In this document: positions 61 to 62,854 of the stretch, in pieces
Position numbering within the stretch: position 1 is the stretch's first letter
Layout of the letters: every line of letters begins with the position of its first letter
NCBI GenBank assembly: GCA_009837205.1
Contig: VXTZ01000022.1
Span: 1 to 64,000, forward strand
Length of the DNA: 64,000 nucleotides
Reading direction: 5' to 3'
Source of the DNA: Candidatus Dadabacteria bacterium
Lineage (GTDB): Bacteria > Desulfobacterota_D > UBA1144 > Nemesobacterales > Nemesobacteraceae
The notes under the pieces: model-generated
Database searches by the model: none
What the model was told of the DNA's origin: nothing
Seen by the model: only the letters and a program-made list of their open reading frames with translations
Translations under genes and position numbers: made by a program

Positions 61-2820
61 TCAGATTGATAGCGGCGTTGTTTTCGGCAACATCTTTTTT
101 TTCTCCGAGAACCTTTTCCTTATATCAATTACGGCTTGGGTGATCTCTGCGGGCAGGGATTCGAGTTCCTCTCCCGTTTCCGCCCGCACCGCGTGCCAGA
201 GCGGTTCCATGGTTTCAGTCAGGGCAGGATGGCTTTCCATTATCTGCATGACCTGTTGGCTCCAGCCGGCCGCCGTGAGATTGATTAGGGATTCCGTCAG
301 ATCATGCGTGTTCCAGTATCGTTGGCCGACGGCGACGGAAAGCGCTCGGTCAAGTTTTTCAAGAGCTGCCATCCAGTTCCCGCAGCGGGCCAGTACATCG
401 GAGACCGTATGAAACGCGGCAGGTTCCTCCGGCATCAGTTCCGCCGCGCGGCAAGCGTAGCGTTTCGCTTCTTCCAGGCGCGCAACGTCGTCACTCCTGA
501 GAATCGCCTCCGCCCTGACGCGCCAGGCCTCGCCACACTCGGGGTCGAGTTCTGCTGCCTTTTTGCAACCTGATTCCGAGTTGTCATAACATCCCAGCAA
601 GTTGGCAATATTGCTCCTAGTGGCCAGCAGCTTAGCGAATTTCTGACGCGTATCTACCGGATCTTTCATATAAATATATTCTGAAAACCGGCCGTGGGAA
701 GTGATCCAGTCTTCAAACCGCCCCAGTTCCAAATATGCGGTGTCCAGAGCAAACAACGCTAGACTGGCACCGTAACGTAATGTTGCCGAGTCATCGGTAC
801 GAACATATTGAGTGAAGCTTTCCAAAATGGAGACAACTTCATCATAACGCTTTTGTGCGACAAGGACGTTTCCTTTCTCGGCGAGCGTCTTGATAAGCGC
901 CAGGCGCAACCATTCCGGATCGTCCGGGCGGACATATTGCGAAGCTTGTCGCCAGGTCGCGAGAGCTTCTTCGTGATGATCCTTTTCCGAGAAAAATTCG
1001 CCAAGAAGCCGAAGCCATTCAGTGGCTGCATAGCGTAGAGGGTGCGGGTCGTCCTGATTTACAAGCTCCGGAATTTTCCCTATAACGTTTGAGGCATCGC
1101 CAGAATTTTCCAGAGTGAAAAGAATTCCGGCCTCTGCAATCAGAGCTCCAAGTGCGTAAATCCGCAACTGTGCGGCATCATCGGGACTGACAGCCTCGGT
1201 TACATGCCTGAACGCATCGAGGGCATCCTCAAAATGCTTTCTTCCTCCTAAGGCGAAACCAAGAAGAAACCGAGCAAAAAGATTCTCCGGTTCTTGCCTG
1301 ATTGTCTCTCTGCACTCGGTTTCCGCCTCCACGAAGCGCTCAGACTGGAGTAGCTCGATGCCGCGACAGACCTTATCCGAAAAACAATCCAAATCTAACT
1401 GGTACTGCCGGGAGATATCCCGCACTATTTCGCCAAATGCTGACACGTTCGCGCCGTTCGTGCCGATAGAATTGATTATCAGGTTAAAGGCATTGTTCAG
1501 CCAGTCTTCGCGTTCCGTGAAACCACTGTCGTTCGCCGCATAGGGGATCAGGGCTCCAAGCAGTTCAGGCGCCTCTTCATCCTTAGAGACCCCGCTGCTT
1601 AACTTCTCAAGAGTCGCCAGATACATCGACCGCATCGGAACCGGGCCGAACAGATCGTTGAGGAAGTCTACCAGCAGCTTCAGGCGTCGATATCCCCGCC
1701 GCGAGAAACGCAGCAGGAAGTAGATGTTGTAGAACCGGTCGGCAACCTCGTACCGGATACGCTTTTCCCTCTCTGGCCGCGCTTCCCTGGCGTATCCCTT
1801 GTCCACCAGCTGCTTGAGCTGGGCGCTTGTGTGAGATGAGGAAAGCCTGGCCGCGGCGGATACTTCCTTCGCGAGCATGGGACTCCATCCCTCCGCAAGG
1901 CAATGAAACACCTTTCGGGACTGTGTCGGCAGCTCCTCAATGCGGGACTTGAAGTACGGAGTCTGTTCGTCGATTAGCTGTTCCAAGTCCTTGAACGCGG
2001 AACCGAGCGGCGACTCAACCAGAATTCCGTAGGTCAGCACCAGCAGCCGCGGGTTTCCTCCGGTCAGGCGGCGCATGGTCTCGATTCGCCCGCGTTCGCG
2101 GCTCAGTGTCTCGGTGACCTCAGTTTTGCCTTCACGTTCCGCGAGGGCTCGGAAGATCTGAAGATACTCTTCGCACCCAAGACCTTCTAGAAGAAAAACC
2201 CGGAAAAACTCGTAAAACGGTTCGCCGCGGTGCCGTATGGCCTCGAAGACGGCGTTTGCGGAACCGATCAGCAGTATCTCCGGATGTTCGATCAACGAAG
2301 CCCGCAAAGCGTGGACTTCGCGCTCATCACCCAGTTGTGAGAAAACGATGTCAAGATTTTCGACAAACAGAATCAGCCTCTTTCCGCTTCCTCGGGAGAA
2401 ATCAATAAGAACCGAGAGCGCGTACGCGGCAAGGCGCTGCGGATCCTTCTCGTCGGCCGAAAGCGCTTCTGCCTTGTCCTCCCATCGGGAATCCCGAGTG
2501 GCGCGGGTCAGGTGATGCAGGGCCGTAAGCCAGAAATCCGCCAGGTCGGTCACCTGATAGCTTTCCTCGTGAAACGCCACGGGCTGCCATGCTTCTGCAA
2601 GATCGGGCGTTTCGCGTACCGCTTGGAGAAACCGCAGACCGAGGGTGGTTTTGCCCATCCCCCGCGAACCGACAAGCAGCATGTGCTGGCACGGTCGGTC
2701 GGTTTTCTGCTCGTCCAGGAGGCGAAGCATCTCAGTGAGGGTCTCCTGACGGGCGACGAAGGAAGCCTTGAGTTCTTCCGGGGAGAGTTGGGCCGGGTTG
2801 TAGATACGTCTTTGCTTCAT
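61..2820 (-). CDS. AAA/STAND-like ATPase with TPR-type C-terminal half
   Basis: Large P-loop NTPase, 919 aa. Residues 51-59 carry a Walker A motif (GSRGMGKTT) and around residue 155 there is a Walker B-like strand (LILFVENLD). A winged-helix-like part follows, and the C-terminal half (from about residue 500) is helical with TPR-like repeats. This layout resembles STAND regulators or defence NTPases, where the repeats sense a ligand and the ATPase switches. The start at 2820 is chosen because its ATG overlaps the stop of the upstream ATPase gene (ATGA); an in-frame ATG 36 nt further up is less likely. The two genes form one operon that may continue past the left edge. No catalytic effector domain is visible. 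The function is unknown; defence is inferred only from the neighbourhood. Confidence 0.75.
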   Translation of the reverse strand: MKQRRIYNPAQLSPEELKASFVARQETLTEMLRLLDEQKTDRPCQHMLLVGSRGMGKTTLGLRFLQAVRETPDLAEAWQPVAFHEESYQVTDLADFWLTALHHLTRATRDSRWEDKAEALSADEKDPQRLAAYALSVLIDFSRGSGKRLILFVENLDIVFSQLGDEREVHALRASLIEHPEILLIGSANAVFEAIRHRGEPFYEFFRVFLLEGLGCEEYLQIFRALAEREGKTEVTETLSRERGRIETMRRLTGGNPRLLVLTYGILVESPLGSAFKDLEQLIDEQTPYFKSRIEELPTQSRKVFHCLAEGWSPMLAKEVSAAARLSSSHTSAQLKQLVDKGYAREARPEREKRIRYEVADRFYNIYFLLRFSRRGYRRLKLLVDFLNDLFGPVPMRSMYLATLEKLSSGVSKDEEAPELLGALIPYAANDSGFTEREDWLNNAFNLIINSIGTNGANVSAFGEIVRDISRQYQLDLDCFSDKVCRGIELLQSERFVEAETECRETIRQEPENLFARFLLGFALGGRKHFEDALDAFRHVTEAVSPDDAAQLRIYALGALIAEAGILFTLENSGDASNVIGKIPELVNQDDPHPLRYAATEWLRLLGEFFSEKDHHEEALATWRQASQYVRPDDPEWLRLALIKTLAEKGNVLVAQKRYDEVVSILESFTQYVRTDDSATLRYGASLALFALDTAYLELGRFEDWITSHGRFSEYIYMKDPVDTRQKFAKLLATRSNIANLLGCYDNSESGCKKAAELDPECGEAWRVRAEAILRSDDVARLEEAKRYACRAAELMPEEPAAFHTVSDVLARCGNWMAALEKLDRALSVAVGQRYWNTHDLTESLINLTAAGWSQQVMQIMESHPALTETMEPLWHAVRAETGEELESLPAEITQAVIDIRKRFSEKKKMLPKTTPLSI

Positions 2821-4028
2821 GGCTCCATCCCCCCTGACCGGTTTTTCCGCCACCACTCCCTAAGCAGGTTCGATCTGAAACACACATGGGAGCCGTCCCG
2901 CCGCACGTACCCGTCCGATTCCAGATTGCGAAGCGCCGAGAGAAGCTCGCTTTCGCCCTGCCGGGTCAGTTTCTCAATATCCGAGATGCGCGCACCGTCT
3001 CTCCGCCGACAGGCGTGATTGAGTATGTCGTGCGCCGCTTCCTGCTCGTCTGCGTCAAGCATGATTTCCAAGCGGGCTGCGTAATGGTCAAGATGAGGCG
3101 TGCCGCCAGGTCCCGTAAGCCTTTCCGTGAAGCATCGCTCTATTGCACTTTCGGAAACGCGCGAGGGGTCCCCATTGCAGGATTGGCGAAGGGTCGAAAA
3201 AAACAGTTGCAGGTGATAGGGAACCGGATCCGAGAGGAGGTCGAGAATTTGTGAGACGCTACGTTCGTCCATGCGGAAGCCATAACTGTCTCCAAGCTCC
3301 TCCAGAAACTTAACTGCGACATCCCGGTCCCATGAATCCAGCTGGAAAGGGGCCAGATCGTTTATTAATCCCGAAAGAGCAAAGCGTCTGAGAACGCCTT
3401 CAAGCCCGATGGACCCGCCGATCAGTGTGCACACCTTCCCGCGCATCTGCGGAGACTGGCGCCAGCGCCGGAACCCGGACAGCAGCAACTCGACATCATG
3501 TTTTCCTTCGAGGGTTTTCAGCATGCGCGAGACGAGTATCGGAAACTCGTCGAGGATGATCAGGAGGCTGCGACCGGGATCCGGCAGACTCTCAAGACGT
3601 TCAAGAAGCTGATCCGCTGTACGTTTCCAGTCCCGGCCGATCGCCCTTTTGAGTTCAATGCGGACTTTTTCGATGCTGACGGAAACTTCGGAAAAGGAAA
3701 ATGTGCTCTTGAGCGTGTCTACTACGGTCTTTGCGAACGGAATTTTTTCGATGCCTCGGCGGTACTCCGGGTTCACCGCCAGAGCGGCGACAATTGCCGC
3801 CAAGCAATCCGCCGAATCTTCGGCACCTTCAACATCCACATAAAAGACATCCCAGTTTTCCCGAGGTTCGCGACGAAGTTCCAACATGAGGCTGGTCTTC
3901 CCGACCCGTCGCGGGGCAAGCATCAGAACATGCTCTCCCTGCTCCAGTTTTTCCCATAGCAGTTCCAGTTCGGATTCTCGTCCGTAGAGGTCTTCGCCGA
4001 TTACCGCCTGTCCTGTAATGTTTTGCAT
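2817..4028 (-). CDS. ATPase_2-like P-loop ATPase
   Basis: A 403-aa ATPase of the archaeal-type ATPase_2/AAA family. Walker A is APRRVGKTS at residues 38-46 and Walker B is LLIILDEFP at 155-163; a winged-helix segment lies in the last 80 residues (SELLSALRNLESDGYVRR). It is the first gene of a two-ATPase operon and overlaps the next gene by ATGA, so the products are probably made in matched amounts and may work together. The ATG at 4028 has a GGGAG ribosome site 8 nt upstream and a good promoter behind it. These ATPases are common in archaea and sporadic in bacteria, which suggests transfer. The substrate is unknown. Confidence 0.75.
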   Translation of the reverse strand: MQNITGQAVIGEDLYGRESELELLWEKLEQGEHVLMLAPRRVGKTSLMLELRREPRENWDVFYVDVEGAEDSADCLAAIVAALAVNPEYRRGIEKIPFAKTVVDTLKSTFSFSEVSVSIEKVRIELKRAIGRDWKRTADQLLERLESLPDPGRSLLIILDEFPILVSRMLKTLEGKHDVELLLSGFRRWRQSPQMRGKVCTLIGGSIGLEGVLRRFALSGLINDLAPFQLDSWDRDVAVKFLEELGDSYGFRMDERSVSQILDLLSDPVPYHLQLFFSTLRQSCNGDPSRVSESAIERCFTERLTGPGGTPHLDHYAARLEIMLDADEQEAAHDILNHACRRRDGARISDIEKLTRQGESELLSALRNLESDGYVRRDGSHVCFRSNLLREWWRKNRSGGMEP

Positions 4029-60243: not shown

Positions 60244-60571
60244 TTCCCCGGGAAGTTTTCTTCCGAACGAGATGTAAATCCGGTATACTAAATCCTTAGT
60301 ATTTTACTGTAGGCCTACCGTTATAATTCATGATAGTGAACCGCTGTCGAAGGAGAGCGAGTAGCTTCCCAGATCCGGTCGCGTGCTAGGAAAAACGGAT
60401 CAAGAAACTTCAGATGAAAAGACAAATTTCTTTGGGGCCGTCTTTTTCCTGAACTTTCGCTGAACTCTTTAAGCCGATTTTTTATCATGGAGTTCCGGGA
60501 TTATCGAAATCATTTTTTTGCGGTCACCGCCTCCTTCCATAAGATTTTTTTATTTTCTCTGAGAAAAAAAA
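60244..60571. other. Gap between the PpiD-like gene and the retron locus
   Basis: No gene. It holds several short palindromes: TACTAA-ATCC-TTAGTA (60285-60300), GTAGGCCTAC (60311-60320), and an interrupted long inverted repeat from GGAAAAACGG (near 60389) to CCGTCTTTTTCC (near 60439). TTTTCTC-T-GAGAAAA lies just before the retron promoter. Some may be terminators; none has a clean stem plus T-run. Confidence 0.4.
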
Positions 60572-60599
60572 TTGACTTTTAGCAAATATCGTATAGCAT
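60572..60599 (+). promoter_or_regulatory. Promoter of the retron locus
   Basis: TTGACT (60572-60577), 16 nt, TAGCAT (60594-60599). It reads into the structured non-coding region and the three genes behind it. Confidence 0.4.
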
Positions 60600-60609
60600 T
60601 TAATCTTAA

Positions 60610-60626
60610 CTGAACTAATAGTTCAG
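60610..60626. promoter_or_regulatory. Operator-like palindrome in the retron leader
   Basis: CTGAACTA-A-TAGTTCAG is a perfect 8-bp inverted repeat around one base, lying just after the -10 of the retron promoter. It is the size and place expected for a Cro/CI-type repressor; the HTH gene at 61227 is the natural candidate. Confidence 0.5.
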
Positions 60627-60649
60627 ACGTTCTTTGACAACACCTTCAG

Positions 60650-60895
60650 GATTGGACTCGTCGAAGACCAAGCTTTTAGCTTGGTCGATGCGTACGCATC
60701 TTAACAGAAGCAGATGGCGAGGGTAGAGGGATCTTCATCTTTGAAACTTGTAGAAGATAGGTTCTCTCCCGGATCGTGTTATACCGGCGTTTAGGCGTGT
60801 GAGCCCTTGAGACCTGTGGAAGTATAGTTCGCATGATAGTATGCGACTGAAATAAGAGGATTGCGGAATTCGCTGTGTTTTTTTTCGGTCCAATC
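60650..60895 (+). ncRNA. Candidate retron msr-msd RNA
   Basis: The region ahead of the retron genes has the layout of a retron RNA. GATTGGAC (60650-60657) pairs with GTCCAATC (60888-60895), extended by CG/CG, as a possible a1/a2 helix. Inside are a 9-bp hairpin GACCAAGCT-TTT-AGCTTGGTC (60666-60686), a perfect palindrome GATGCGTACGCATC (60687-60700), and a long interrupted hairpin from about 60719 to 60770 with ATCTTC/GAAGAT at its core (msd-like). A further TCGCAT-GATAGT-ATGCGA hairpin is at 60829-60846. The boundaries and the branching G are not fixed; the a1/a2 helix is short. Confidence 0.45.
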
Positions 60896-60949
60896 GCATG
60901 GCGACTGGGCGAGAATGCCCGAAAAATTTTGCCCAAGGAGGTGAGTAAA

Positions 60950-61192
60950 ATGCTTTTAGATAAGCAGTTGTTAAAGAAGATGCTGAATACTCTCATAGAG
61001 CTAAAGGCGTCTATCCGTAACACAGCGGATTCCAGCGTTAATATCCGACTGGATGAGGTTATAGGCCAACTCCGGTCCATGATAGAAGGCAAAGAGCCTG
61101 AAGACGCGAACAAGATCTTGAATGGTCTTGGCAAGTTTTTGAAGATGCTACTAAGCATTGAGGCTTTGATAAGTTTCCTGTCTGATGATTAA
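60950..61192 (+). CDS. Unrecognised 80-aa protein of the retron operon
   Basis: First protein of the retron operon. A very strong ribosome site (AAGGAGGTGA, 60935-60944) sets the ATG at 60950; a reading from 60875 would start inside the RNA region. 80 aa, helical, with LLKKMLNTLIELKASIRNTA and a C-terminal amphipathic helix ILNGLGKFLKMLLSIEALIS that could insert into or lie on a membrane. No family recognised. It could be the effector or an RNA/RT-binding accessory. It ends as the HTH frame begins. Confidence 0.65.
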   Translation: MLLDKQLLKKMLNTLIELKASIRNTADSSVNIRLDEVIGQLRSMIEGKEPEDANKILNGLGKFLKMLLSIEALISFLSDD

Positions 61193-61226
61193 CGCAACAA
61201 TCCTTTTTATTTTTTACAGCCTGATC

Positions 61227-61517
61227 ATGAATCTTGGTGCAACTATAAAACAGTGTCGGAGTTTGCGTAAGATGACTCAGTCTCAGCTGGCCGATGCAGC
61301 CGGTCTGTCTGTTTCTCATCTTTGCCTTCTGGAAAAAAACGAGCGTCAGCCCAGTATTTCAGCTATAGAGTCAATAGCGCGAACTCTGGAAATACCTCTA
61401 AGCGTTCTTATTTTCTTGGCTGCGGAAAAAGAAGAAGTCCCCGAGTTAACAGCAAAGCATATTGAAGACCTGTCAAGACACATAATAGGTTTAATGAAAT
61501 TACATGCCCAGAGATAG
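61227..61517 (+). CDS. Cro/CI-type HTH regulator of the retron operon
   Basis: A 96-aa Xre-family protein: NLGATIKQCRSLRKMTQSQL, then SVSHLCLLEKNERQPSISAI (HTH about 6-60), with a short helical tail. An upstream ATG at 61185 would add 14 hydrophobic residues and overlap the previous gene; the family begins at the ATG chosen. The gene overlaps the RT gene by 14 nt, so both are made together. Retrons with a small HTH protein are known; here it likely binds the palindrome at 60610 and/or is the toxic or regulatory partner of the RT-msDNA. Confidence 0.85.
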   Translation: MNLGATIKQCRSLRKMTQSQLADAAGLSVSHLCLLEKNERQPSISAIESIARTLEIPLSVLIFLAAEKEEVPELTAKHIEDLSRHIIGLMKLHAQR

Positions 61518-62466
61518 ACATCCCGTTATAAACATTTCCCCTATCGCTAAGGTTTCCTCTCTGGCTTCATTACTTTCGATCAAGGAATCCGATTTGCTGT
61601 ATATTGCCGCAAATGTGGATCGGTTTCACAGGCCGGGGAAGGAGCTTAAAAAAAGAAACGGGGAACCACGGCAAACCCATGACGCGGAGCAACGGCTGAA
61701 AATCATACATGGGAGAATTAACAACCGAATACTTAAAAAAGTCGATTACCCATACTATTTACAGGGTGGAATAGCAGACAAAAAACGGTCTCGAGGCTGT
61801 CGTGCTAACGCCATTATTCATTCCAGAAAGAAGTTGATTATCACTGAGGATATAAAGGATTTTTTCCCCTGTACAAGCAAAAGAATTGTTAAAGGAATTT
61901 GGCAATACTGCTTCCGATTTCATCCCGAAATAGCCGATATCCTGACCCGTCTGACCATCTACCAGAACCAACTCCCCCAAGGCTGGAAAACCAGTTCATA
62001 CTTGGCGAACTTAGTATTTTGGGACAAAGAACCGGATTTGGTGTCTTTACTTGAGCAACGGGGTTATTCCTACAGCCGTTATATGGACGACATTACCGTA
62101 TCAAGCGGGCATTATATAAACAACCACCAAAAGAACTACATAATATCAAAAGTTTACGAAATGCTTTTTTCCAAAGGGTTCGCACCAAAGCGCAGCAAGC
62201 ATGAAATAGTCAGTCAGAGTCAGCGAATGGATATTACGGGCTTGGTGGTAAACAGGAAAAATCCGACGGTCTTAAAGAGCAAACGCAGGGGAGTGCGAGT
62301 AGGCGTATTCAAACTGGAGGAACTGCCAATAAATAATCGTTCAGATGCTGATTATCGTGAATGCTGGGAGCATTTGTCTGGATTGGTAAGTTATATAAGC
62401 GCTTACCATCCTAAAGAAGGTAAAAAGCTACGTGCTCGGTTACGTAATATAAAGCCGAATAGGTAG
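61504..62466 (+). CDS. Retron-type reverse transcriptase
   Basis: 320 aa, a compact RT without maturase, endonuclease or N-terminal extension domains. Landmarks: NAIIH at 102-106 (retron NAxxH, region X), EDIKDFFP with Asp116 (motif A), LPQG at 157-160, RYMDD at 192-196 with catalytic Asp195-Asp196, and DITGLVVN with ITG at 244-246 (retron VTG, region Y), followed by a thumb-like C-terminus. It makes msDNA from the adjacent structured RNA. The ATG at 61504 overlaps the HTH gene. Codon use is more AT-rich than the neighbours, in keeping with transfer. Confidence 0.92.
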   Translation: MPRDRHPVINISPIAKVSSLASLLSIKESDLLYIAANVDRFHRPGKELKKRNGEPRQTHDAEQRLKIIHGRINNRILKKVDYPYYLQGGIADKKRSRGCRANAIIHSRKKLIITEDIKDFFPCTSKRIVKGIWQYCFRFHPEIADILTRLTIYQNQLPQGWKTSSYLANLVFWDKEPDLVSLLEQRGYSYSRYMDDITVSSGHYINNHQKNYIISKVYEMLFSKGFAPKRSKHEIVSQSQRMDITGLVVNRKNPTVLKSKRRGVRVGVFKLEELPINNRSDADYRECWEHLSGLVSYISAYHPKEGKKLRARLRNIKPNR

Positions 62467-62854
62467 TATCTGCCAGAAGACTCTGTTTTCCTCCGAATTA
62501 TTTTAGGGCATAATCAGCAGCAACTACCTTTCCTGCTATCTGTTTATGAATCAACATACTGCGTTCCTTTGTTTTTAACCTAGTACACAGCAATTAACTG
62601 TTCCCACCGGGAAGTTGTAAATCCTCTAGATATTGTGGTATAATTCAAACTGACCGGAAGGCCTTGATCGATAAGGAATCTTTTTCACGTACTGCCGAAA
62701 GCATCATCCCGGCAGCTTTCTTCAAGATTCTGGCCCTGTCAGGGCTTCTATAATACGCATGCGGGAGCTTTAACTTTCCCGGTTACGGCGAGGGGTTTGC
62801 GTAAAACGGGCGGCGGCGCGCGTGAACGCAGCGATGCCGGGCCGCGATTCTCCC
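62467..62854. other. 388-bp gap between the RT gene and smc
   Basis: No gene. It contains TATAAT boxes at 62637 (with TTGTAA 18 nt upstream) and at 62749-62754, either of which could drive smc. A short hairpin GCCCT-GTC-AGGGC lies near 62733. No clear terminator follows the RT gene. Confidence 0.4.

Follow-up and report, generated by a model that had tools for sequence, protein, structure and literature searches.

The window analysed in this study, a stretch of 64,000 nucleotides from a Candidatus Dadabacteria contig (VXTZ01000022.1), carries the genes of a type VI retron, an anti-phage system, in the order SP-HTH-RT. Type VI is reportedly one of the classes in the retron scheme of Mestre et al. 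The cassette and its genes are located as follows:

60251..62600, + strand: retron cassette (approximate limits), an insert of ~2.35 kb whose site is empty in related genomes
60950..61192, + strand: SP, a small protein of 80 aa (PADLOC SP_VI, 1.4e-10)
61227..61517, + strand: HTH protein (PADLOC HTH_VI, 3.6e-24; Pfam HTH_3, 1.7e-10)
61504..62466, + strand: retron reverse transcriptase (RT; PADLOC RT_VI, 2.6e-72), with NAIIH, YMDD and ITG motifs

The best retron models in PADLOC for the three proteins were SP_VI, HTH_VI and RT_VI; for the RT, RT_VI came top of 60 PADLOC models (2.6e-72), with RT_V as the runner-up (7.2e-68). These downstream matches agree with the original prediction, which had put a retron RNA immediately before retron genes. 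Alignment located the RT motifs NAIIH and YMDD, together with ITG in the window and VTG in the related locus L002. The motifs expected of retron RTs are NAXXH, YXDD and VTG, and a V-to-I change in the last of these is also present in a validated retron (PMC6868368). A cold-shock gene was neither annotated nor matched in the window cassette, which holds HTH and SP genes instead. Structure prediction gave SP three helices (mean pLDDT 75), and a PDB fold search with SP was uninformative, with no match below E 0.9. Judging from the gene set, and assuming toxicity, SP is the likely effector, and the HTH protein would be its partner or regulator.

The cassette lies between a SurA-like gene on one side and an SMC gene on the other, and both of its ends carry a TTCCC..CCGGGAAGTT-like sequence. 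At three empty sites (L055, L058, L060), window positions 60250-60257 are joined straight to 62601, and the cassette site is empty in congeneric genomes. The cassette, RNA included, inserts as a unit, and the RNA is therefore part of a single mobile unit. Ahead of the promoter, a part of the cassette about 310 bases long (60258-60571) has no assigned function.

A 97% identical RT occurs in another Dadabacteria MAG, and L002 is 95.5% identical to the window over the locus. Searching genome contigs for further type VI retrons returned a near-identical Dadabacteria copy as the sole match. Our comparisons used type VI loci that share the SP-HTH-RT order, from Psychrobacter (L005), Alteromonas (L006), Pseudomonas (L007) and viral-collection contigs (L009, L010, L012), whose RTs are 35-46% identical to the window RT, and type V sisters with a cold-shock gene (L030, L048, L049, L067, L029) from small enterobacterial plasmids and Halomonas. 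The cold-shock gene of L067 is annotated as a retron Se72 family effector. A type V retron of an Edwardsiella plasmid (L072; leader ~76% identical) was fetched once the predictions were fixed and is the sole truly held-out locus, helices elsewhere having partly been first spotted by eye. Leader helices were left unaligned in MAFFT, so covariation was evaluated from hand-set strands and permutation.

Several arrangements related to the retron genes were seen in other contexts. On a Thiothrix lacustris plasmid (L025, 1747-2309), SP-like and HTH-like genes adjoin without an RT gene and without boxA; this pair is possibly a stand-alone ancestor or a remnant of the type VI module, and its lack of an RT fits a two-gene module that was brought under retron control. 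In a metagenomic viral contig (L015, 2430-3987), a single ORF of 201 aa, located ahead of a retron RT, fuses SP-like and HTH domains. Cupriavidus and Burkholderia plasmids (L024, 2001-4270; L026, 2001-4264) carry a type VI-like HTH gene followed by genes for an AAA ATPase and an S8 peptidase; this operon is of another kind, and the stretch contains no RT. A more distant operon of small ORF, HTH and RT, without boxA, is present on Acinetobacter plasmids (L027 and L028, both 1989-3174). Lastly, L013 (2845-4603) and L014 (2956-4603) encode a retron-like RT (~390 aa) and, after it, an ORF resembling a membrane protein; a GCGTACCGC-type palindrome upstream resembles the one in the leaders of types V and VI.

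Promoter-like and boxA-like elements of the leader

The leader begins with three elements:

60572..60599, + strand: promoter-like TTGACT-16-TAGCAT (consensus scan; by eye, a similar sequence lies at the same place in relatives)
60610..60626, + strand: H0, a 7-bp palindrome or hairpin (boxB-like, or an operator) just after the promoter
60629..60639, + strand: boxA-like GTTCTTTGACA, equal to the published boxA consensus except for A to G

A hairpin with a different sequence occupies the H0 position in all type V and VI relatives. We considered H0 as an operator for the HTH protein, an idea weakened by type V, which has the H0 hairpin and no HTH gene in its cassette.

The motif GYTCTTTRANA occurred within 400 nt before the first gene in 9/11 type V and VI loci, several of them interrelated, compared with 0.04 expected. 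Eight of the 11 match GYTCTTTAANA, the published gamma-proteobacterial consensus (PMC5725501), and boxA is exact in the held-out L072. The 16S leader of the host (L031) contains TGATCTTTGAAAA, with TGATCTTTGAAAATT just past a promoter-like sequence; the latter is the probable rRNA boxA of the window's Dadabacteria genome. In the boxB-boxA antitermination site of rRNA leaders (NusB/S10), a hairpin is likewise followed by boxA just past the promoter, but here, unlike in rRNA sites, boxA sits in a retron. A boxA ahead of CRISPR arrays offers a precedent (PMC7862264). Our literature search found no paper combining boxA and retrons.

The a1/a2 helix and its surroundings

Downstream of boxA, the region contains the following features:

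60650..60658, + strand: a1, the partner strand of a2 (p = 3e-5 in the blind cognate test)
60660, + strand: candidate G for priming, 2 nt past the end of a1 (context TCGT)
60666..60686, + strand: P1, msr-like hairpin with a 9-bp stem and a UUU loop (from the fold; same place and other sequence in relatives)
60687..60700, + strand: P2, msr-like hairpin (from the fold; same place and other sequence in relatives)
60704..60822 (about), + strand: candidate msd hairpin, weak, seen only when the isolated segment is folded to minimum energy
60843..60849, + strand: direct repeat copy 1, GCGACTG (the repeats bracket a2 in all type V and VI loci)
60887..60895, + strand: a2, pairs with a1
60901..60907, + strand: direct repeat copy 2, GCGACTG, 5 nt past a2 (spacing the same in L005, L006 and L010)
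60907..60920, + strand: small hairpin GGGC GAGAAT GCCC after repeat copy 2 (read from the sequence)

The 8-mers GATTGGAC (60650-60657) and GTCCAATC (60888-60895) are complementary exactly where they had been predicted. They belong to a 9-bp helix (60650-60658 x 60887-60895, with one U.G) that encloses 228 nt, in line with the earlier estimate of about 230 nt; in retrons generally, the a1/a2 helix that flanks msr-msd spans about 8-30 bases. In the window alone this pairing is unremarkable, as 139/150 shuffles of the 631-nt region held a long-range helix at least as strong, and the fold of the isolated segment was only slightly better than that of shuffles (z = -1.86).

Comparison among relatives was more informative. 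Contiguous helices were sought between the segment from boxA to the first hairpin and the segment preceding SP, with cognate partners scored against swapped ones. Cognate pairing exceeded swapped pairing in seven type VI loci (p = 0.0006) and in eight type V and VI families (p = 3e-5). The strands read TAATTGAACCT/GGGTTCAATTG in L005, AATATTGAACT/GGTTCAATATT in L010 and CAAAGAAT/ATTCTTTG in L029; for L007 and L009 the blind search favoured another helix, and CCGTAA/TTACGG as a1/a2 is our choice. A gapped RNAduplex version of the test (combined p = 0.037) was too noisy, because nearby hairpins get swallowed, and was dropped for the contiguous-helix and swapped-partner tests. Compensatory changes in a1/a2 across homologues, which had been named beforehand as the check to make, are thus present in the cognate tests and in the held-out L072. 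On these comparative grounds the a1/a2 helix is real, and distant retrons, both of type VI and of the Se72-like type V, keep it with sequences of their own.

The interior of the helix is in part as had been proposed. Two compact tandem hairpins do follow a1 (P1 and P2), a number within the 1-3 stable hairpins typical of an msr, and they recur in all relatives with different sequences, although their comparative p-value is inflated because the helices were hand-picked. The long interrupted msd-like hairpin appears in the isolated fold, but covariation did not bear it out beyond the near-identical Dadabacteria copy. By eye, the type VI relatives carry a G 1-3 nt downstream of a1. AGC, the canonical context for priming, does not follow a1 in the window (TCGT), while L007 and L009 have AAGC/TAGC there; some validated retrons also deviate from AGC (e.g., ACGC). 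Rfam gave no match in the RNA region.

A direct repeat of 7-10 nt around a2 was significant across loci (combined p = 6e-5, for a region picked after viewing the data). Its sequence is TCGACTGG in L006 and L010 and TCTGGCA in L072, and the motif differs between the Se72-type V loci (GTCTGGCAA) and type VI (CGACTGG). A hairpin follows repeat copy 2 in most relatives. In L067 the repeat-bounded segment measures 71 bp, near the 72 in the name Se72, and is a candidate for the Se72 product.

Long-range helices between the leader and SP

The original picture of the RNA was sound in its a1/a2 helix but incomplete, since it left out b, c and d, three more covarying helices at long range that tie the RNA to SP:

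60630..60641, + strand: d1, in the boxA region; 12 bp with d2 (permutation p = 4e-5)
60967..60978, + strand: d2, within the SP ORF (SP nucleotides 18-29, the SP start)
60851..60863, + strand: b1, pairs with b2 (p = 4e-5 in 8 families, 0.0016 in 6 type VI loci)
61198..61211, + strand: b2, in the gap between SP and HTH
60865..60879, + strand: c1, 15 bp with c2, -27.9 kcal/mol (p = 4e-5)
61019..61033, + strand: c2, within the SP ORF (SP nucleotides 70-84, codons ~24-28; codons ~22-28 over the type V and VI loci)

Helix b was first noticed in type V leaders, where a segment of the ncRNA recurs inverted at the beginning of the RT gene, and then found in type VI; its p-values come from the swapped-partner test. 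Its strands flank SP, which places an ORF between inverted repeats next to the msd, as in Se72. The strength of c1/c2 was matched in 1/150 shuffles. In controls for c and d, the ncRNA segments were paired with the opening bases of the next gene or with SP in reverse, which gave p = 0.18-0.23. Distances from the SP start are near-constant across loci (c2 at +63 to +93, d2 at +11 to +36), and d is weak in L005. From the window to L002, G-C gives way to A-U at 60863 x 61198 in helix b, and in c1/c2 GGAA/TTCC becomes GGGT/ACCC, where the SP residues change too. In the held-out L072, each of the four helices lies in the segments predicted for it (p = 0.033 for a, 0.001 for b, 0.044 for c and 0.005 for d). 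Overall, the conservation of b, c and d equals or exceeds that of a, and these helices are mostly stronger. In type VI, boxA overlaps d1, so that pairing may also conserve boxA; in type V, boxA lies outside d1 and is therefore not conserved through pairing alone.

The strands follow the order d1 < a1 < b1 < c1 < a2 < d2 < c2 < b2 in 9/10 loci (in L005 the d2 search string was unmatched). The nested pair a and d therefore crosses the nested pair b and c, which implies a pseudoknot or two mutually exclusive folds. The pseudoknot-free minimum-energy fold of 60610-61240, which takes in the full leader and the SP region, contains b and c and neither a nor d (-205.2 against -198.0 kcal/mol); b and c cross a1/a2 and take its place there.

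Interpretation and comparison with known systems

The three long-range pairings to the SP gene suggest that an RNA switch couples the copying into DNA with SP. We consider it reasonably probable that the region encodes a type VI retron RNA whose folding, and perhaps reverse transcription, controls SP, whether priming is canonical or Se72-like. The stretch 60610-61211 would be the 5' part of the type VI retron operon transcript. Comparison with relatives shows that a1/a2 closes an msr-like domain with two hairpins, that the functional RNA extends through the SP ORF to b2, and that d1 pairs with the SP start, c1 with SP codons ~24-28 and b1 with the gap after SP. The strand order is observed directly; whether as a pseudoknot or as a switch between two folds, a and d would compete or coexist with b and c. 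The RNA would hold SP base-paired, SP translation would depend on the RNA fold, and reverse transcription upstream of a2, or its failure under phage attack, would alter SP output. Canonical priming copies the stretch upstream of a2 (c1, b1) first, so that SP would be freed from c and b, whereas in Se72-like priming b2 on b1, beside the direct repeat, would serve as the primer. It is probably boxA that keeps RNA polymerase moving through the long structured leader. A more specific version, in which types V and VI share a two-state RNA, copying of c1/b1 into DNA removes the effector-pairing strands and the RT-DNA state sets effector translation, seems to us rather doubtful.

Among the alternatives, Se72-like self-priming is a tentative possibility. 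The RNA would be cut after b2, the 3'-OH of b2 would prime on b1, beside repeat copy 1, and the RT would extend into an upstream msd, leaving a1/a2 as an accessory fold and the repeats as bounds of the product or a means of template jumping. Type V (Se72) shares boxA, helices a to d and the repeats with the window, its effector is annotated as Se72 family, and the 71-bp segment of L067 is close to the number in the element's name. A review describes Se72 as priming itself from a free 3'-OH without a 2'-5' link, and mentions a repeat-flanked ORF as a possible alternative msr (PMC6868368). Against this, the repeats that the Se72 literature meant are our own reading, and no cut site after b2 is known. 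Given how Se72 primes, a plain canonical msr-msd should not be assumed here.

Retrons in general yield multicopy RT-DNA that is usually 2'-5' linked. Such a canonical retron, with a1/a2 positioning a 2'-OH priming G, the RT copying from a2 through the msd, and b, c and d merely stabilising or tuning the mRNA, is in our view unlikely. The order a1, G, UUU-loop hairpin, msd, a2 is the canonical one, the RT has NAXXH and YXDD, the UUU-loop stem is the target of region Y of the Eco1 RT (PMC6868368), and AAGC/TAGC follows a1 in L007/L009. However, b, c and d are conserved no less than a, the window has no AGC context and the sister Se72 lacks the 2'-5' link. Pairing in trans, with a processed retron RNA acting as an antisense regulator of the SP mRNA in the manner of an RNA antitoxin, is a still more remote prospect: d1, c1 and b1 all lie in the RNA and d2, c2 and b2 all lie within or after SP, but cis pairing within a single transcript accounts for these observations too, and it is the fold of minimum energy. 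A chance inverted repeat at a1/a2, for which the shuffles of the window alone could speak, is contradicted by the blind cognate tests and by L072 and can hardly be credited.

If folding of the retron RNA does control SP, as we favour, a conserved pairing between RNA and effector frame would connect reverse transcription directly to expression of the effector, in a way that mutations can alter. The mechanism of phage sensing and effector release is obscure for most retron types (PMC13405049). A design common to types V and VI would also make the odd Se72 retron one member of a wider group, and boxA in a retron leader would be a possible new use of boxA. Type VI retrons and the repeats around the Se72 ORF are already known; to our knowledge, in a search that lay outside the main classification and census papers, the crossing helices that pair with the effector frame, their occurrence in both type V and type VI, and the leader with boxA appear undescribed.

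As a type VI retron, the window has all three genes in the order SP-HTH-RT with significant matches, and it is the first found in Candidatus Dadabacteria. Our literature search, which did not extend to the main classification paper, turned up no publication describing the type VI RNA. Like Eco1 (Ec86), the locus has an a1/a2 helix, an msr hairpin with a UUU loop, whose stem is bound by RT region Y in Eco1 (PMC6868368), and a NAXXH-type RT. Unlike canonical retrons of the Eco1 type, it lacks AGC at the candidate priming G and has helices pairing with an ORF; canonical loci (L050, L051) show a single strong helix right before the RT. The type V retron Se72 (Retron-Sen1) has the same leader, sharing boxA, H0, a1/a2, the two hairpins, the repeats around a2, helices b, c and d and a small ORF, but carries a cold-shock effector after the RT where the window has an HTH gene before it.
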